This document shows, piece after piece, positions 23,460 to 32,980 of a stretch of DNA of 33,946 nucleotides (positions within the stretch are counted from its first letter, which is position 1; every line of letters begins with the position of its first letter). Under the pieces are notes generated by a model. The model searched no databases, was not told where the DNA came from, and worked only from the letters and a program-made list of their open reading frames with translations. The DNA comes from Verrucomicrobiota bacterium. Lineage in GTDB: Bacteria > Verrucomicrobiota > Verrucomicrobiia > Limisphaerales > UBA1412. Location: the NCBI GenBank assembly GCA_019136955.1, contig JAGVTF010000068.1, forward strand, positions 1 through 33,946, read 5' to 3'. Both the position numbers and the translations under genes were made by a program.

Positions 23460-23483
23460 GGGGTCAAATGCGACCCCTTTTTT
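23460..23483. terminator. Bidirectional terminator between convergent genes
   Basis: GGGGTC - aaatgc - GACCCC followed by TTTTTT on the plus strand; read on the minus strand the same hairpin is followed by ATTTTTG. It ends both the phosphodiesterase and the methyltransferase transcripts. The minus-strand TAA stop (23482-23484) lies within the T-run. Confidence 0.88.
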
Positions 23484-24486
23484 ATCGCTTTTGGAGGATC
23501 AGGACCGCCTCTTCGCCGATGGAGGGATCGCGCTTCAGGGAGAGATGCTCCCTGTACTGGAGGAGGACCGCGCGGAGGGTGCGTTTGAAGTGGAGCGTCT
23601 TCTTTTCGATGCCCTGCAGGTTGCCCGGCTGGGAGCGGGCTTGCAGGGCCAGGCTTTCATCGAGGATGAAGTCGGCCCCGGTCGCCGTGGTGAAAGAGCT
23701 CTGCATCGGCTCGGTGAAGCCCAGCTCTCTCGCGCAGCGCCGGAGCGCCGTCAGTGAAAAGATGTTCAGGTGGCGGGGGACCTCCAGTCCTCTCCAATAC
23801 TCGTGGGTGATGCCGTGGCCGAGGCTTTCACTGTTGGGCGTGACGACGACGAGTGTGCCGCCTGGCCTCAGGATGCGCAGGCAGTGGCGCAAGGTGCCGA
23901 GGGGGTCGGGCAGATGCTCGATCACGTGCCGGAGCGTTACCGCGTCGAAGGAGCTGTCGGTGTAGTCTTTTTCTTCCAGAGTTCCCTGGCTGACATTGAG
24001 CCGGTAGAGGTCGCGCGCTCGTTTGAGCGCCTGTTCATCCAGGTCGATCCCCTCTGCTTTCCATCCTCTGGCGGCCATGAAGCGGAGGTAGGCTCCGTCA
24101 CCGCAGCCGATATCCAGAAGCCGTCCGGAGAATTTATCATCCAGGTAGAGATACTCCATCCTTCTGCGTGCCTGGGCCAGGCCGATGGGCCACTGGATCA
24201 ATTTGGAGAGGCCGTTATAGAGGAGCCTGACCGCTTTGCGGCCGAGGCTTTCGGCGGTGGCGTCGTGGGTGTAGTAGTGGGCGTAGACTTTGTGAAGCTC
24301 CGCCGGCAGGGGGGCCGGGTTGAGCCAGATGAGGCCGCAGTTGCTCCGGGGGCATTTGAAAAGGTTCCACTGCCCGGGTGCTCCAAAAAGGGAATCCGAA
24401 AGCCGCGCATAGAGCAGTTCGCCGCGCTCGGCGCAGAGGGTGCAGAACGGTTTTTCTTCAGTCAAAATTTTCGGTTCAGTTTTCAT
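23482..24486 (-). CDS. Class I SAM-dependent methyltransferase with N-terminal zinc motif
   Basis: A 334-residue methyltransferase. N-terminal CTLC (C15, C18) and KCPRSNC (C45, C50) form a likely zinc-binding unit, as in many Methyltransf_23-type proteins of surface-glycan and antibiotic clusters. Motif I is LLDIGCGDGAYL (123-134), motif II KAEGIDLDEQALKRA, then FDAVTLRHVIEHLPDP and LRILRPGGTLVVVTPNSESL. The block HEYWRGLEVPRHLNIFS is the family's typical substrate-side segment. It is the last gene of the minus run, 12 bases after the oppF-like gene. Substrate is not predictable; a sugar or small molecule is more likely than RNA. Confidence 0.87.
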   Translation of the reverse strand: MKTEPKILTEEKPFCTLCAERGELLYARLSDSLFGAPGQWNLFKCPRSNCGLIWLNPAPLPAELHKVYAHYYTHDATAESLGRKAVRLLYNGLSKLIQWPIGLAQARRRMEYLYLDDKFSGRLLDIGCGDGAYLRFMAARGWKAEGIDLDEQALKRARDLYRLNVSQGTLEEKDYTDSSFDAVTLRHVIEHLPDPLGTLRHCLRILRPGGTLVVVTPNSESLGHGITHEYWRGLEVPRHLNIFSLTALRRCARELGFTEPMQSSFTTATGADFILDESLALQARSQPGNLQGIEKKTLHFKRTLRAVLLQYREHLSLKRDPSIGEEAVLILQKR

Positions 24487-24498
24487 TTCGGTTGTTTT

Positions 24499-25464
24499 CT
24501 ATTTTGAGGAGGTATGGAGATGGCAGGCGACGGAGTGGGTAGCCGAGATTTCGCGGCGGCTCGGGTAGGAGCGGCGGCATTCTTCGGTGGCATGGGGGCA
24601 GCGTGGATGGAAGTGGCAGCCGGGCGGAGGATTGAGAGGCGAGGGGACCTCCCCCGCCAGAGGCAGAGCCTCCGAGAGCCGCTCCTTTTCAAGGGTCGGA
24701 ACCGCATTCCAGAGCGCCTGCGTGTAGGGGTGAAGCGGCTGGGAACGGACCTCCTCCACCAGCCCCTCTTCCACAATCCGGCCCAGATACATCACGGCGA
24801 CGCGGTGGCAGGTATGTTGAACCAGCGCCAGATCATGCGAAATGAAGAGATAGGATATTTTTTCACGCTGCTGAATATCAACCAGCAGGTTAATGATCTG
24901 CGCCTGAATGGAGACATCAAGCGCGCTGACCGGTTCATCGCAGATGATGAGGCGCGGCGAGAGCGCCAGAGCGCGGGCAATGCCGACTCGCTGCCGCTGG
25001 CCGCCGCTGAACTCATGGGGATAGCGCCGAGCCTGGGAGCTGTCCAGCCCGACCGACTCCATGAGAGAGTGGATTTTCTCCAGACGCTCTTCGCGGCTCG
25101 AGTAGAGGCGGTGAATATCGAGCGGCTCCCCCAGTATCTGCTCAATGGTCATCAGGGGGTCAAGCGAGCTGTAGGGGTCCTGGAAGATCATCTGGATTTT
25201 CCGGCGCAGTTGATGCAGAGCGTTGCCATTGCGCCCTGAGAGGTCTTGTCCCTGGAAGTGGATGCTCCCCTCCGTGACGGGAGCCAGCCCCAGAATGGCC
25301 CGGCCAAGGGTCGTTTTGCCGCAGCCGCTCTCGCCGACCAGCCCAAGGGTCTCACGCTCGCCCAGCCGGAGCGAGACTCCATCGACGGCACGCACAAAGC
25401 GCTTCGGCGCAAAGAGGCGCTGGGCCAGCGGGTAGTATGCCTTGAGGTTATCGATTCTGAGCAT
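24499..25464 (-). CDS. Oligopeptide/dipeptide ABC transporter ATP-binding protein (OppF/DppF type)
   Basis: Cytoplasmic ATPase of 321 residues. Walker A GESGCGKTT (44-52), Q-loop in IFQDPYSSLDPL, signature SGGQRQR (153-159), Walker B LIICDEP (D176, E177), H-loop ISHDLAL, and the C-terminal oligopeptide-family extension with CHFHPRCPHATEEC. An OppF rather than OppD assignment follows from RAVDGVSLRLGERETLGLVG. Its permeases, OppD partner and binding protein are absent on both sides, so either the rest of the transporter is encoded elsewhere or it works with other components. It is 89 bases from the upstream glycerophosphodiesterase gene. Confidence 0.92.
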   Translation of the reverse strand: MLRIDNLKAYYPLAQRLFAPKRFVRAVDGVSLRLGERETLGLVGESGCGKTTLGRAILGLAPVTEGSIHFQGQDLSGRNGNALHQLRRKIQMIFQDPYSSLDPLMTIEQILGEPLDIHRLYSSREERLEKIHSLMESVGLDSSQARRYPHEFSGGQRQRVGIARALALSPRLIICDEPVSALDVSIQAQIINLLVDIQQREKISYLFISHDLALVQHTCHRVAVMYLGRIVEEGLVEEVRSQPLHPYTQALWNAVPTLEKERLSEALPLAGEVPSPLNPPPGCHFHPRCPHATEECRRSYPSRREISATHSVACHLHTSSK

Positions 25465-25553
25465 TGCGGGTGGAAAGGGGAGTGGAAAAAGAGATGGGAC
25501 CCATTGGCCGGTTCCAGCGCGACAGATCCCATTCTTTTAGCGTCAAACGCTCT

Positions 25554-26441
25554 TTATTTCGTGGCAATCGCCTTCCAGACCAGGGCCGGATTATCCGTGA
25601 TGATGCCATCCACACCCATGGCGAGCAGCTCCTGCGCCTCTTTGATATCATTGATGGTATAGACGAAGACTTTGAGCCCCTTGCTGTGCGCATACTCAAT
25701 GCCCTCCGGCGTGAGCTGTTTATTCCAGGCGGCGCCCGCGACGCCAAGTTTGAGCATCTCGTCAACGGCGGTTTTATCCATCACTTTTTGCTCGGCGGTG
25801 AGCTTGACGCCGCGAATCTCGTTCTGGGGACCCAGTGCGACGGTGATCTGCTCGGGCAGCACCTTCTTCATATCGGCCAGGAAGTTCCAGTTGAAGGATT
25901 GGACAATCAGATCGTTGACGCAATCTAACTTTGTCAGGACCGCCGCGCATTGGGCGGCTGAGCCGGTCTTGTGCTCGGCCAGCGTCATGCCGCCATCGGC
26001 CTGAATGGCGATCAGCGCCTCTTCCAGGCTCGGCATCGGCGTGCCGGCATACATCGGGTTCTTCCATTTACCGGCGTCGAGCTTGCGCACCTGTGCATCG
26101 GTGAGGTCAAGCATGGTGGCATTGGTCAGGCTCAGCGTACTGCGGATATCGGTGGTACGGTCGAGCGTGCGGTCGTGCAGGCAGAAGAGGGTACCCTCCT
26201 TGTTGACGTAGAAATCGAGTTCCACCATGTCGGCCTCGGCCAGTTTGCCCCAGAAGAAGGCGGGGACGGTGTTTTCGGGAGCGCCCATCGAGAAACCGCG
26301 GTGAGCGACGACGATCGTACGGTCGCTCTCCATCAGCTTCAGGGCACGTCCATCAGCGGCTTGGGAGCTGGGCATGGTGAAGGTGAAGGCGGCGATAAAA
26401 GCCGCGGCGGATAACAGTTTTATATAGGTTTTATTTATCAT
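25554..26441 (-). CDS. Secreted glycerophosphodiester phosphodiesterase
   Basis: Hydrolyses glycerophosphodiesters to glycerol-3-phosphate and an alcohol. It has a signal peptide cut near residue 28 (FTMPSSQAA), so it acts in the periplasm or outside. The TIM-barrel motifs are H47-R-G, ENT (56-58), VELDFYV (metal ligands E74, D76), H89-D90 in FCLHDRTLDRTTD, and TLAEHKTG for the next strand. The C-terminal GLKVFVYTINDIKEAQELLAMGVDGIITDNP is the standard end of the family. Length 295 aa is normal. It lies 18 bases after the sugar kinase gene in the same run. Confidence 0.93.
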   Translation of the reverse strand: MINKTYIKLLSAAAFIAAFTFTMPSSQAADGRALKLMESDRTIVVAHRGFSMGAPENTVPAFFWGKLAEADMVELDFYVNKEGTLFCLHDRTLDRTTDIRSTLSLTNATMLDLTDAQVRKLDAGKWKNPMYAGTPMPSLEEALIAIQADGGMTLAEHKTGSAAQCAAVLTKLDCVNDLIVQSFNWNFLADMKKVLPEQITVALGPQNEIRGVKLTAEQKVMDKTAVDEMLKLGVAGAAWNKQLTPEGIEYAHSKGLKVFVYTINDIKEAQELLAMGVDGIITDNPALVWKAIATK

Positions 26442-26459
26442 GATTATTAAAGTGATTTT

Positions 26460-27581
26460 CTAAACTTCGGCACGGCTCCATTTGTGGATGAACCGGGCGA
26501 GCTCTTCCGCGGTGGCGCTGCGGGCTTCGCGTACGAAGAAGCCGGAGCAGGCGCAGCCCAGGAGTAGCTTCTCCCTTTGAGCGAGCCCCAGGAGGGTGCC
26601 TGCACAGAACCCGGCATTGAAGCGGTCTCCGGCTCCGGTGCTCTTTTTGGGCTGGGCGCAGTAGGGGCCCGATACGGCGTAGCTGCCGGTGGAGTCGGCC
26701 ACTGAAGCCGTCTTGACGCAATGGATGGAGACGGCGCTGATTTTGAGCTCTTCGCGAATTTCAGCGGCCTGGGTCGCGATTTCCGTCTCTGAATCGCCAA
26801 CGGTCGGGATACCCAGTACACGGGCCACGACATTGGCTTCCACACCGTTCAGCCCCAGGATGGCCTCCACGTTTTGGTCAAGCTCGCTCACTGTATCGAG
26901 CATTTCGGAGATGTCGATAATGGTCCGGCTGGAGGGGTCCACCAGGTCGATATAGAGCGGCAGACGGCGCGGCAGCTTGCTGTAGACTTCGTTATTGAGC
27001 TTCTGCCAGCAGGCGGTCATGTGCGGGAACATGCTCCAATCGGTCAGGACCAGCATCGATGCGTTCCTGCAGCACTCCTGGTAGTAGCCATCGGCGAGCA
27101 TTGCGTCCAGATGCTCCGGAGTGAAATCGAAGGTGGGGGTGATAGCGCTGAGCATGTATTTGCCGTCGCTGAATTCCAGGGCCAGCGTACGGCCGGGGGT
27201 CTTGCCCCAGGAGCGGTAACTGGCGCATTTATCGAGCAGGCTCTGGAAGGCGACGTGGACCGGCTCCCCCAGCGTGGCGAAGATGTGCATCGGGATGCCC
27301 AGCGTGGCGGTGCCATCGCTCAGGTTGACGGTGCAGCCGCCTGCGGCTGTCTCGTGAACTACGATTTCCCTCAAGCTGCTTTTGCCTGCGGCCGCCTGCA
27401 TATGCTCGGCCATGCGGGCAATGGTGGGTACGGGTATCCAGTGGCTCAAATCGGAGCGTTCTTCAACAACCGAGATCATCTCATCCACAAAAGCGTCAAA
27501 CCCTGACACAATGGGCAGGGAGCGTAACTCAGGGGAACGGTTGCCGAAAAGCTCGGCTAATTTTGCTAACTCATCATTCAT
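26460..27581 (-). CDS. PfkB/ribokinase-family carbohydrate kinase
   Basis: A 373-residue ATP-dependent sugar (or nucleoside) kinase. The signature STGAGDRFNAGFCAG contains the anion hole and catalytic base D319 (GAGD, 316-319). The N-terminal substrate region is TAAGGCTVNLSDGTATLG and FATLGEPVHVAF. Upstream, VSGFDAFVDEM resembles the family's GxxxxD opening. The sequence is long for PfkB (usual about 310-330), with an extra helical segment at about 40-75 (SHWIPVPTIARMAEHMQAA). It has no sugar-specific neighbour, so the substrate is open. It probably forms a transcript with the phosphodiesterase gene and is 57 bases from the GrpE-like gene upstream. Confidence 0.88.
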   Translation of the reverse strand: MNDELAKLAELFGNRSPELRSLPIVSGFDAFVDEMISVVEERSDLSHWIPVPTIARMAEHMQAAAGKSSLREIVVHETAAGGCTVNLSDGTATLGIPMHIFATLGEPVHVAFQSLLDKCASYRSWGKTPGRTLALEFSDGKYMLSAITPTFDFTPEHLDAMLADGYYQECCRNASMLVLTDWSMFPHMTACWQKLNNEVYSKLPRRLPLYIDLVDPSSRTIIDISEMLDTVSELDQNVEAILGLNGVEANVVARVLGIPTVGDSETEIATQAAEIREELKISAVSIHCVKTASVADSTGSYAVSGPYCAQPKKSTGAGDRFNAGFCAGTLLGLAQREKLLLGCACSGFFVREARSATAEELARFIHKWSRAEV

Positions 27582-27638
27582 AGTGGCAATTCACGTATTA
27601 TTAGAATCTCTCTCCAGGTAATTCTAAACCTAAAATCT

Positions 27639-28943
27639 CTAGAGGGGAAGCCTCTCTTCGTCATCGGGGCTCTCATCGGGTTCGTCTTCTTCCGGCGGCT
27701 CCTCCTGGCTCCAGCTCTCTTCGATTTCCCCCAGCTCTTCGGTTTCGATTTCGATTGGCTCGGAGGGTTCATCTTCTGCCGGAGATTCCTCCGGTTCAGG
27801 GGCAGCCTGCTTTGATGAAAGAGATTCGAAGCTTTCCTGACGGAAGAGCGCTTCGCTGTCATCGAGCGGCTCTTCAGCGAGCTCTATCTCGCTCTCCACC
27901 TCTGCCAGTATCTCTTCTTCGGGGCTGAGCTCTTTGATTTCCTCCGGCTCCGGCTCCAGTTCAGGTTCGAATTCGGACTGCTCGGTCGGCTCCGGCGTTT
28001 CGGAGAGCTCCTCTTCGTGGTCCACTTCCAGCGGCTCGGCCGGGGTGAAGGAGGAAGTTTCTTCCCGGGCGGGTTCAAACGGGGAGCTGGCGAAGGAGTG
28101 AGTCACCCCCTGGGCTCCGGCGGGTTCACCTGCGGCCGCCTCCATTCCTTCGGTCAGGATGAGCGCTTTGCGGGTGAGCTGCCCCTGGTAGAGGAAGCCC
28201 GGCGCCAGGACGCGGATGATTCTGGCCGCCGTCTCCGGTGGGGGGGCATCGGTGGGGACGGTATGTTTTTCGGGGTCGTAGTGCTCAGTCGGCGCCGGCA
28301 TATAGGGCTGGATGCCGGCACGGGAGGCGATATCGAGGCAGGCGGCACGGAAGCGCTTCATCTGCTCGGCGATTTCCGGCTTGCCCGAGTGGATACCGGC
28401 ACTGGCCAGGGCCAGGATATGATCTAACATGCCGCTGGCGCTGGCGACCCACTCTTTCTCGATCCTCCGCAGCTTATCGATCTCCAGTTGGAAGGTGCTC
28501 TTTTCGTACTGGGCGGCCCTGGAGATTCTTTCTTCGAAGTCTTGTCCGTACTGGGCGATTTTTTCTTCCGCTTCGGCAGCACGCCCGGCCGAGGCCTGGG
28601 CGATTTGCTGGATATTGGAGAGGGCGAGCAGGGCCGAATTGACCCCGTCAGAAAAAGTATTCATCTTCCGGATACTCTCCTGCACATCTGTGAGCCCTTC
28701 GAGCTCAGAGAGTCTGGATTTGGCGCGATGCTCCAGTATCCACGGTATCACGGCTATCCAGGCGCCCGAAGCGACCAGAAGCGTAATGGTCCAGACCGCA
28801 GAGGCTGAAAGGGGATGTTGGGCAAAGGTGAGAATCCCAATAGCGGTCAGAATGAGAACCAGATCGGTCACGACAAAGGGCGCTTTGTCTGATGCCGACG
28901 GGTTTGAAGTCTCTGACTGAGGCGTCTTCTGAAATTCATTCAT
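27639..28943 (-). CDS. Membrane-anchored GrpE-like coiled-coil protein with long acidic tail
   Basis: A 434-residue protein in four parts. Two hydrophobic helices lie at about 22-42 and 48-71. An extended coiled coil follows at about 74-165. A segment at about 168-266 reads like the GrpE C-terminal half: helices LDHILALASAGIHSGKPEIA and MKRFRAACLDIASRAGIQP, then YDPEKHTVP and GFLYQGQLTRKALILTE, which parallel the DPxxH and GYxxxGRxxRxAxV blocks of GrpE. Residues about 285-434 are mostly Glu, Pro, Ser and Asp. GrpE is the nucleotide exchange factor of DnaK; whether this protein binds Hsp70 is unproved, and no dnaK or dnaJ is in the window. With both helices inserted as a hairpin, the rest would be cytoplasmic. 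AGGTAGGA lies upstream of the ATG. A generic coiled-coil protein is the alternative. Confidence 0.65.
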   Translation of the reverse strand: MNEFQKTPQSETSNPSASDKAPFVVTDLVLILTAIGILTFAQHPLSASAVWTITLLVASGAWIAVIPWILEHRAKSRLSELEGLTDVQESIRKMNTFSDGVNSALLALSNIQQIAQASAGRAAEAEEKIAQYGQDFEERISRAAQYEKSTFQLEIDKLRRIEKEWVASASGMLDHILALASAGIHSGKPEIAEQMKRFRAACLDIASRAGIQPYMPAPTEHYDPEKHTVPTDAPPPETAARIIRVLAPGFLYQGQLTRKALILTEGMEAAAGEPAGAQGVTHSFASSPFEPAREETSSFTPAEPLEVDHEEELSETPEPTEQSEFEPELEPEPEEIKELSPEEEILAEVESEIELAEEPLDDSEALFRQESFESLSSKQAAPEPEESPAEDEPSEPIEIETEELGEIEESWSQEEPPEEDEPDESPDDEERLPL

Positions 28944-30382: not shown

Positions 30383-30409
30383 AGTTTGAGAACGGTATAA
30401 GGGGAAGTG

Positions 30410-32980
30410 ATGAAAAAGATGAGAACAATCTGGGGCGGCTCGGCTCTCATGACTCTGGGTCTGAGCGCCGCGTTGCTGCTATCAGTATGCCACGGGTCGC
30501 AGGCCCAGGCCGAGCCGGAGCCAGTATTGGCGCAGGAGGGGAGCCTGGACTCCCTGCGCGCCGCGGTGGAGTATCTCCTGAAGCAATACCCGGGGGAGTA
30601 TCAGCAAGAGTGGCTGGAGGAGGTCAGGCGTCTGGAGGAGCGGATTGGCCCCGGGGCCGATGCGGCCGGAGGCATCCCCGCTTCCCTTGAAGAGGTGAAA
30701 GAGCTGAGCCGGCGGGCGCTCCTGGCGCATCCGGTTTTGACGCAATATCCGCTGGTGTACGTGGAGCGCAGGCAGTATAGATCGGACCACCATAATACGG
30801 CGACGCTCTTCCAGCCTGGGGAGATCAATGCCGGCAGCTACGATACGCGCGGTGTCCTCAAGGCGCTCTACCTGCCTGAAGGGGTGACGCGGACGGTCTA
30901 TGATGCCGGGGCGTTTGCGACGATTCGCGACCTGGAGGTGAGCCCCGATGGCGAGAAGATACTCTTTTCCATGCGCCGCAATGCTCAGGACAGTTACCAT
31001 ATTTACGAGATTGGTCTGGATGGGCACTACCTGCTGCAGCTCACCTCAGCGCCGGGAGTCTCGGATATCGACCCGATTTATCTGGATGACGGGAGCATCG
31101 TTTTCGCCTCCACCCGCGAGCCCAAGTACTGTATGTGCAACCGACATATCATGTGCAATCTCTTCCGGATGGATGAGGATGGGGCCAATATCCACCAGAT
31201 CGGGAGGAGTACGCTCTTTGAGGGGCATCCCTCGCTGCTGGCCGATGGGCGCATCCTCTACTCGCGCTGGGAGTATGTGGACCGGAATTTTGGCGACGCG
31301 CAGGGGCTCTGGGTTTGCAACCCCGATGGAACCCAGCACGCCATTTACTGGGGCAATAATACCTCTTCGCCCGGGGCCGTGCTCGATGGACGGGCCATCC
31401 CGGGGAGCGACCTGGTGTTGACGACCTTTTCCTCCTGCCACGACCGACCCTGGGGAGCGCTGGCGATTATCGACCGCAAGCTCGGAGTCGATGGCAGGGA
31501 ATCGGTCCTCCAGACCTGGCCGGCTGATTTTATTGAACGGATCAATACGGATGCCTGGGAGGATTTTGACAGCACCGTCTCCCTGCGGGTGAAGTACGAG
31601 GACCCGTATCCGCTGGACCGGCATTTTTTCCTGGCAAGCCGCACGACCGGTTATCAGGAGGAGATGGGAATCGTCCTTTTGGATACCTTTGGCCACGAGA
31701 TCGTAGTGCATCAGGATGCGCCCGGATGCTTTGACCCGATGCCGGCGATGCCGCGTCAGATGCCGCTGGTTCGTCCGACGGCTCGGAATTTTGAGGAAAA
31801 AACCGGCAAATTCTACGTGCAGGATGTCTATATCGGCACGCACATGAAGGGAGTGGAGCGCGGCGCGGTGAAGTCTTTGCGCGTGGTGGAATCGCCCGAG
31901 AAGCGCACCTATGCCGGCTGGCGTGATGGCTGGTTCGGCCAGGGTGAGCAGGCGCCCGCCATGAGCTGGCACGCCTTTGAGAATAAACGCATTCTGGGGA
32001 CCGTGCCGGTGGAGGAAGATGGCTCGGCCTATTTTGAGATACCGGCCAACCGGTTCGTCTATTTCCAGCTTCTGGATGAGGAAGGGATGATGATTCAATC
32101 GATGCGCAGCGGCACGATCGTCCAGCCCGGGGAGATTCAGGGATGCGTCGGCTGCCACGAAAACCGTGTAGAGGATGCCGCACCTCCGGTGAGCGCGATG
32201 CCCAAGGCCGTATCCCGTCTGCCCAGCCCGATGAATGGCTGGTACGGGGAGCCGCGACTTTTCAATTATCTCAAAGAGGTCCAGCCGGTCTTTACCAAGA
32301 ACTGCGCTCATTGTCACGATGTCGGCCAGGAGGCCGGGGAAAAGCTTATCCTGGCGGCCGATCAATCCATTCCCTTCAATGCCGCCTATACGGATATGTG
32401 GCGCAAGCAGGCGATCCATGCCATCGGTGCAGGGCCTGCCGCCATTCAGGAAGCCTACTCCTGGGGCAGCCACGCCTCCAAGGTGGTTTCGCAAATCAAA
32501 AGCGGCCATAACGAGGTCGAGCTGACCCGTGAAGAGTGGGAGCGGGTGGTTACCTGGATTGACCTCAACGCAGTCTACTATCCGATTTATGAAAGCGCCT
32601 ATCCCAACTCGCCCTGCGGACGCTCGCCGATCAGCTTTGAAGAGCGGGACCGCTTGCAAAAGCTGACCCAGATCAATATCTCCAATAACCACGGCAGCCG
32701 GCAGGAGGCGCTTGTCTATTTCGACCGTCCGGAAATGAGCCCCATTCTGGCCAAACTGGAGAAGGAAAGCGCAGAGTATAAGGAGGCGCTGGCGATTATC
32801 CAGTCTGGCAGGGAACGGCTGCTGAGTAAACCGCGCGCCGACATGGAGGGCTTCACCCCCTCCGAAGAGCACCAGAAAGCGCTGGATAAATATGAGGAGC
32901 GCGCTGCCTGGGAGGCAAAAGTCTATGAAGCTGTCAGGGAAGGCAAAAAGGTGTATGACCCGGGTCTGAGCCGGCGATGA
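30410..32980 (+). CDS. HzsA-related exported protein with two CxxCH heme motifs
   Basis: An 856-residue exported protein (ATG 30410, preceded by AAGGGGAA; a GTG one codon earlier is possible). Signal peptide ending near SQAQAEPE. Residues about 165-360 contain PD40/TolB-like beta-propeller repeats: LEVSPDGEKILFSMRRN, YLDDGSIVFASTREPKY and LADGRILYSRWEYVD. Downstream are two heme-binding motifs, CVGCH (C580, C583, H584) and CAHCH (C633, C636, H637), counted from the GTG. This order matches the HzsA-related family, relatives of the hydrazine synthase alpha subunit common in PVC bacteria. Presence does not imply anammox: HzsB and HzsC are not here. A redox or carbohydrate-linked role is open. 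Its stop overlaps the next start (ATGA). Confidence 0.85.
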   Translation: MKKMRTIWGGSALMTLGLSAALLLSVCHGSQAQAEPEPVLAQEGSLDSLRAAVEYLLKQYPGEYQQEWLEEVRRLEERIGPGADAAGGIPASLEEVKELSRRALLAHPVLTQYPLVYVERRQYRSDHHNTATLFQPGEINAGSYDTRGVLKALYLPEGVTRTVYDAGAFATIRDLEVSPDGEKILFSMRRNAQDSYHIYEIGLDGHYLLQLTSAPGVSDIDPIYLDDGSIVFASTREPKYCMCNRHIMCNLFRMDEDGANIHQIGRSTLFEGHPSLLADGRILYSRWEYVDRNFGDAQGLWVCNPDGTQHAIYWGNNTSSPGAVLDGRAIPGSDLVLTTFSSCHDRPWGALAIIDRKLGVDGRESVLQTWPADFIERINTDAWEDFDSTVSLRVKYEDPYPLDRHFFLASRTTGYQEEMGIVLLDTFGHEIVVHQDAPGCFDPMPAMPRQMPLVRPTARNFEEKTGKFYVQDVYIGTHMKGVERGAVKSLRVVESPEKRTYAGWRDGWFGQGEQAPAMSWHAFENKRILGTVPVEEDGSAYFEIPANRFVYFQLLDEEGMMIQSMRSGTIVQPGEIQGCVGCHENRVEDAAPPVSAMPKAVSRLPSPMNGWYGEPRLFNYLKEVQPVFTKNCAHCHDVGQEAGEKLILAADQSIPFNAAYTDMWRKQAIHAIGAGPAAIQEAYSWGSHASKVVSQIKSGHNEVELTREEWERVVTWIDLNAVYYPIYESAYPNSPCGRSPISFEERDRLQKLTQINISNNHGSRQEALVYFDRPEMSPILAKLEKESAEYKEALAIIQSGRERLLSKPRADMEGFTPSEEHQKALDKYEERAAWEAKVYEAVREGKKVYDPGLSRR

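Follow-up and report, generated by a model that had tools for sequence, protein, structure and literature searches.

The window analysed here, a stretch of 33,946 nucleotides from a genome of Verrucomicrobiota, encodes a membrane-anchored paralogue of GrpE, referred to below as mGrpE, and we regard it as practically certain that this architecture is real and extends over the order to which the genome belongs (Limisphaerales). GrpE assists the Hsp70 chaperone by resetting it, and the Pfam family PF01025 represents the bacterial nucleotide exchange factor of DnaK. Sequence and predicted fold place mGrpE in the GrpE family, and the residue tests described below mark it as untypical of DnaK exchange factors. 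The presence of a second, membrane-bound GrpE in nearly the whole order conflicts with the picture given in a standard review, according to which eubacterial genomes encode just one Hsp70 exchange factor, namely GrpE (PMC4753570). A literature search retrieved no paper on a membrane GrpE.

Architecture, family membership and distribution of mGrpE

The elements that the initial annotation had read from the sequence, i.e., two membrane helices, a coiled coil, a GrpE-type motif pattern, and a tail of Glu, Pro and Ser, were confirmed by hydropathy, the AF2 model and the sequence itself (Table 1). The Kyte-Doolittle mean over 19 residues reaches up to 2.3 within residues 21-41 and up to 2.0 within residues 47-70, and the basic residues R73, K75, and R77, which are located just past the second membrane helix, suggest an N-in/C-in topology. 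The AF2 model has a single continuous helix between residues 47 and 184, the coiled-coil part of which (71-184) would be about 17 nm long if straight; K157 and R160 of this helix are invariant across the order alignment. At the first membrane helix, the order-wide consensus reads KWPFLxGDAxLLxxA, and the N-terminal MNEF of the window protein is retained in six of six same-genus genomes. The records of the same genus are Verrucomicrobia metagenome-assembled genomes (MAGs), including one obtained from buffalo omasum.

Table 1. Location of the mGrpE gene and of its parts in the window, with the basis of each assignment
Feature	Positions	Strand	Basis or remark
Whole mGrpE gene (434 aa plus stop)	27639..28943	(-)	ATG start at 28943; AGGTAGGA ~7 nt upstream of start ATG
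First membrane helix, residues 21-41	28821..28883	(-)	Hydropathy; AF2 helix 21-40
Second membrane helix, residues 47-70	28734..28805	(-)	Hydropathy, charge list, AF2
Long helix / coiled coil, residues 71-184	28392..28733	(-)	AF2 pLDDT ~79-97
Short helix of GrpE head, residues 189-208	28320..28379	(-)	AF2; F198 and C202 invariant
GrpE beta domain, residues 211-264	28152..28313	(-)	AF2 pLDDT ~95; Foldseek GrpE; PF01025
DPEKH motif, residues 223-227	28263..28277	(-)	H227 invariant in family
GFLYQGQLTRKA motif, residues 249-260	28164..28199	(-)	G249 invariant, R258 in 23/24
Disordered acidic tail, residues 270-434	27642..28136	(-)	AF2 pLDDT mostly 40-55
C-terminal EERLPL, window copy of [QE]xxL(x)[LFI]	27642..27659	(-)	Tail-motif comparison

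The joining of a GrpE domain to a membrane anchor, as proposed in the initial annotation, is backed by profile comparisons, the predicted fold and conservation across the order. When the window protein alone was compared with PF01025, it was matched over residues 119-261 with an E-value of 3.8e-5 and a score of 23.9 bits, just below the curated cut-off of 25.8 bits, and 27 of 28 orthologues match this profile, the best at 2.1e-12. A search of the PDB with the family profile gave GrpE chains as the best matches, with E. coli GrpE in the first place (8.2e-5). In the AF2 model, a long helix is combined with short helices and a beta wing, as in GrpE, and the first 12 Foldseek matches of the model in the PDB are all GrpE (TM-score by target at most 0.65), with chains of Thermus, human, E. 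coli, Geobacillus, and M. tuberculosis among them, while all non-GrpE matches have E-values above 1. Thus, both the PF01025 match and the beta domain, on which the GrpE assignment had been staked, are found.

The window protein was matched in 37 of 40 relatives, most of which encode one canonical GrpE and one mGrpE, and an alignment search of the order found mGrpE in 268/293 genomes and 112/118 genera. Among the order genomes of good quality (≥90% complete and ≤5% contaminated), 150 of 154 carry the anchor together with the GrpE head, which is the architecture that the initial annotation had suggested searching for. In one very close relative, the orthologue (L006, G003:C37) is broken by an N stretch and a change of frame, which looks like an assembly gap and not like a broken gene. 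The N-terminus, where it is complete, is the membrane hairpin, unlike in soluble GrpE with its disordered N-terminal tail (PMC12915176). All 24 mGrpEs sampled for the phylogenetic tree group in a single clade (support 100/100) on a long branch apart from all canonical GrpEs. Outside the order, a phylum-wide sample searched at E ≤ 1e-15 contained matches in class-mates alone, nearly always ending in the coiled coil, and a contig scan with one sequence matched only close relatives.

The putative Hsp70-facing surface and its possible partners

In the GrpE of M. tuberculosis, joint mutation of R64, N71, R73, K74, R75, and R78 destroys function (PMC10803776), and the G122D substitution inactivates E. 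coli GrpE, in which G122 is part of the surface contacting the DnaK IIB hairpin (PMC10825016). These positions were compared by aligning 24 mGrpEs with E. coli GrpE and with 33 canonical GrpEs from the order. With the reservation that an 8-residue insertion in the stalk alignment makes single stalk positions and their register uncertain (this does not concern G122 or the positions of the beta wing), the six essential stalk positions are retained by the canonical GrpEs of the order, whereas the mGrpE family keeps two of them, i.e., position 74, which is basic (K or R) in 24/24 (K148), and position 78, which is Arg in 21/24 (R152); the window protein, with K148 at position 74 and Gln at position 78, keeps only K74 of the six. 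Relative to canonical GrpEs, in which the residues concerned are fully or almost invariant, N71 and R73 are exchanged for Glu and R75 for Ala or Ser, and position 122 is occupied by Gly in 33/33 canonical GrpEs vs. Gln in 23/24 mGrpEs. Additionally, R183 is mostly replaced by Gln, and position 175 by Ala. The residues of the fold are retained, namely H154, G177, and Y/F178 (24/24 each), R186 (23/24), and D150 (21/24) of the beta wing, as well as V190; the Pro of the DP in DPxxH is kept in only 10/24 mGrpEs. Since conservation extends to the replacement residues, the face appears to have been adapted to a different partner and not to have decayed. Hence, of the earlier suggestion that the protein serves Hsp70 exchange at the membrane, the part concerning the fold stands, while the recruitment of an Hsp70 is weakened by the replacement of most DnaK-contact residues, including G122.

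We tentatively favour, as a reading that falls only a little short of probable, that the head of mGrpE is an Hsp70 exchange factor localised at the membrane and acting via a retooled interface. The GrpE profile and fold, the order-wide retention, the basic positions 74 and 78, and the beta-wing residues speak for it, and the stalk losses, the exchange of G122 for Gln, the variable neighbourhood, and the GrpE-less anchors in other families speak against it. In the mechanism that we infer, from topology and dimerisation to Hsp70 binding, nucleotide exchange and the function of the tail, mGrpE would be fixed in the inner membrane by a hairpin of two helices, both termini of which lie in the cytoplasm, and the long helix, probably in the form of a parallel dimeric coiled coil, would hold the four-helix/beta-wing head about 15 nm into the cytoplasm. 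The head would most likely engage the nucleotide-binding domain of an Hsp70 through the re-tooled interface, and the engaged Hsp70 would be reset beside the membrane in a GrpE-like but localised manner, as by yeast Snl1 with its BAG domain. The hydrophobic motif that ends the disordered tail might recruit a further partner, possibly the substrate-binding cleft of Hsp70.

At least one Hsp70 is encoded by each of the 40 relatives, and canonical DnaK and a second, HscA-like Hsp70 by most of them. In the four copies that were aligned, the latter has an IIB hairpin shortened by four residues, and this second Hsp70 is a possible partner for the altered GrpE face. As an obligate partner of mGrpE it was rejected, as it is present in class-mates without mGrpE, and in one genome with mGrpE (G020) it is seemingly absent. 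The copy of the window's own genome is located at L226:4890-6764 (C268), and orthologues are encoded by most members of the order and sporadically by class-mates.

A search for Hsp70 genes tied to mGrpE, also suggested by the initial annotation, revealed no stable link. The neighbourhood of the mGrpE gene varies, no conserved operon of this gene with a chaperone was found, and dnaK adjoins it in one genome only (G034), as a divergent neighbour. In the window, the region 23482-28943 comprises mGrpE and the genes of a ketohexokinase-like kinase, GDPD, an OppF-type ATPase, and a methyltransferase, in an order seen in same-genus genomes only. The region 30407-32980 encodes an 857-aa protein with an HZS_alpha domain (hydrazine synthase alpha middle domain, 6e-36) and cytochrome c motifs.

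It is also possible, although we hold it with some doubt, that the GrpE fold was repurposed and that the head is a dimeriser that does not bind Hsp70, and a docking surface for another partner, on a membrane scaffold that consists of hairpin, coiled coil and disordered tail and has exchangeable C-terminal modules. The replacement of the lost DnaK contacts by the strictly conserved E147, Q194, and A247 would then point to a new conserved partner, and the unrelated C-terminal domain borne by class-wide homologues of the hairpin, the single mGrpE clade on its long branch, and the inconstant Hsp70 linkage are in line with such a change of function. On the other hand, the beta-wing motifs that define GrpE are retained, K148 and R152 persist, and the full-length GrpE head has not decayed in dozens of families of the order, which is easier to understand with some chaperone contact. 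Because its DnaK contacts are replaced by conserved residues, mGrpE offers a natural experiment on which parts of the GrpE surface are really required.

The C-terminal tail and the weaker alternatives

The acidic tail pointed out in the initial annotation is present in the window protein, in which this tail of 165 residues (270-434) includes 53 Glu, 22 Pro, and 19 Ser and has a net charge of -56, but a long acidic tail is largely confined to the genus of the window, with a few exceptions, and lies outside the conserved architecture; most mGrpE tails have 20-60 residues. Conservation is instead seen in a short motif at the C-terminus or close to it, [QE]xxL(x)[LFI], which the initial annotation had not pointed out and which is exemplified by QSQLPL, QPQLPF, QKTLF, EQTLL, and EERLPL. 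In counts that are approximate, as a few tail cuts include the last beta-domain residues in observed and shuffled sets alike, the [QE] motif occurs in 25/46 tails when one tail per family is taken (in 2000 shuffles, 4.7 on average and at most 11), 21/46 tails end in the hydrophobic part of the motif (1.5 in shuffles), and Q..L followed by L/F/I/M or by xL/F/I was found in 32/103 tails vs. 3.0 in shuffles, with a maximum of 9 (1000 shuffles). The N-terminal tail of E. coli GrpE is acidic and disordered, and its IIM motif enters the substrate cleft of Hsp70 (PMC12915176). As the N-terminus of mGrpE is given up to the membrane hairpin, the tail motif may act like IIM from the other end of the protein.

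We consider it improbable that the tail motif binds the sliding clamp, by which the replication machinery's clamp, or DNA repair, would be linked to the membrane. On visual inspection and in comparison with shuffles this candidate was promising, since Q..L-type ends and the [QE] form are far above the shuffled counts given above, and QKTLF, QSTLF, QSQLPL, and QPQLPF resemble pentameric or hexameric clamp motifs (PMC11139829). It failed the published definition, which is Q-aliphatic-x-[LM]-[FL] or the same with one extra residue before [FL] (PMC11139829): the aliphatic residue at position 2 is required, and 1/110 tails fit, with a shuffle mean of 0.87. Moreover, Glu, which is frequent at position 1 of the mGrpE motif, greatly weakens clamp binding (PMC11139829), and the ends of Pol IV in the same genomes are of the QLxLxL type. 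Mimicry of the C-terminal tip of SSB (DDDIPF in E. coli) is very improbable and was rejected: the acidic context and the hydrophobic-Pro-hydrophobic end of the window protein (ERLPL) recall it, but SSB ends in the same genomes (DDVPF, once DEVPF, and once EDVPF) are unlike LPL, TLL, or TLF, and many copies of the mGrpE motif are internal. The view that the gene codes for a normal soluble GrpE with a falsely extended N-terminus, or reflects an assembly error, has nothing but the rarity of membrane GrpEs in its favour and is refuted by the canonical GrpE that the window genome encodes separately and by the conservation of anchor and head in about 150 good genomes.

The shared anchor and known exchange factors

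Class-mates outside the order encode proteins of about 340-670 aa (L067-L094) with a hairpin and coiled coil homologous to those of mGrpE, followed by a proline-rich/acidic linker, in several cases with a basic, AT-hook-like RAPRKPKP stretch. In place of GrpE, these proteins have a conserved C-terminal domain (GIGNKLFIRGxGPGLSWDKGVPLQFVSIGKWRWE...KLYKND), for which no match was found among Pfam or PDB profiles. The tail motif is weak in their linkers (the [QE] form in 7/18 vs. 1.6 in shuffles). When 6274 ORFs were searched with an HMM of the hairpin only, the class proteins were recovered at 1e-8 to 1e-20, and every ORF recovered also had the longer match, which indicates that the homology of the anchor is independent of coiled-coil composition. 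Most simply, the anchor would be the older part, and the head would have been exchanged. The protein is a modular membrane scaffold, the head of which in the window's order is GrpE, and the different C-terminal domain of the sister families on the same anchor offers a ready comparison. Quite possibly, though we put it forward with caution, this is a Verrucomicrobiota-specific scaffold that combines a tail motif with a GrpE head of new face, which would serve either as a localised Hsp70 regulator, of a kind new to bacteria, or as a GrpE fold with a partner other than Hsp70.

Canonical GrpE and mGrpE share the stalk helix, the short helices, the beta wing, and the DPxxH and G(Y/F)...R motifs. 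They differ in that mGrpE has two membrane helices instead of the disordered N-terminus, a longer helix, an additional C-terminal tail, and replacements of most DnaK-contact residues, and forms a separate clade. If it acts on Hsp70, mGrpE would be the bacterial counterpart of the eukaryotic membrane-tethered exchange factors. Snl1 of the yeast ER membrane (PMC3962485) likewise carries a domain of Hsp70 exchange-factor type on a membrane anchor, but this domain has the BAG fold and is eukaryotic and unrelated, and mGrpE is a candidate exchange factor only. Second GrpE paralogues have been described in other systems, such as GrpS of Myxococcus xanthus (PMC10313047), GrpEL1/GrpEL2 (PMC12987570), and chloroplast CGE1/CGE2 (PMC6987454). 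The cited descriptions of these proteins include no integral membrane form, whereas mGrpE is order-wide and strongly diverged. A further GrpE-domain gene, distinct from those of canonical GrpE and mGrpE, is present in three genomes immediately upstream of an additional Hsp70-type gene (G018:C3, G038:C441, and G039:C354).
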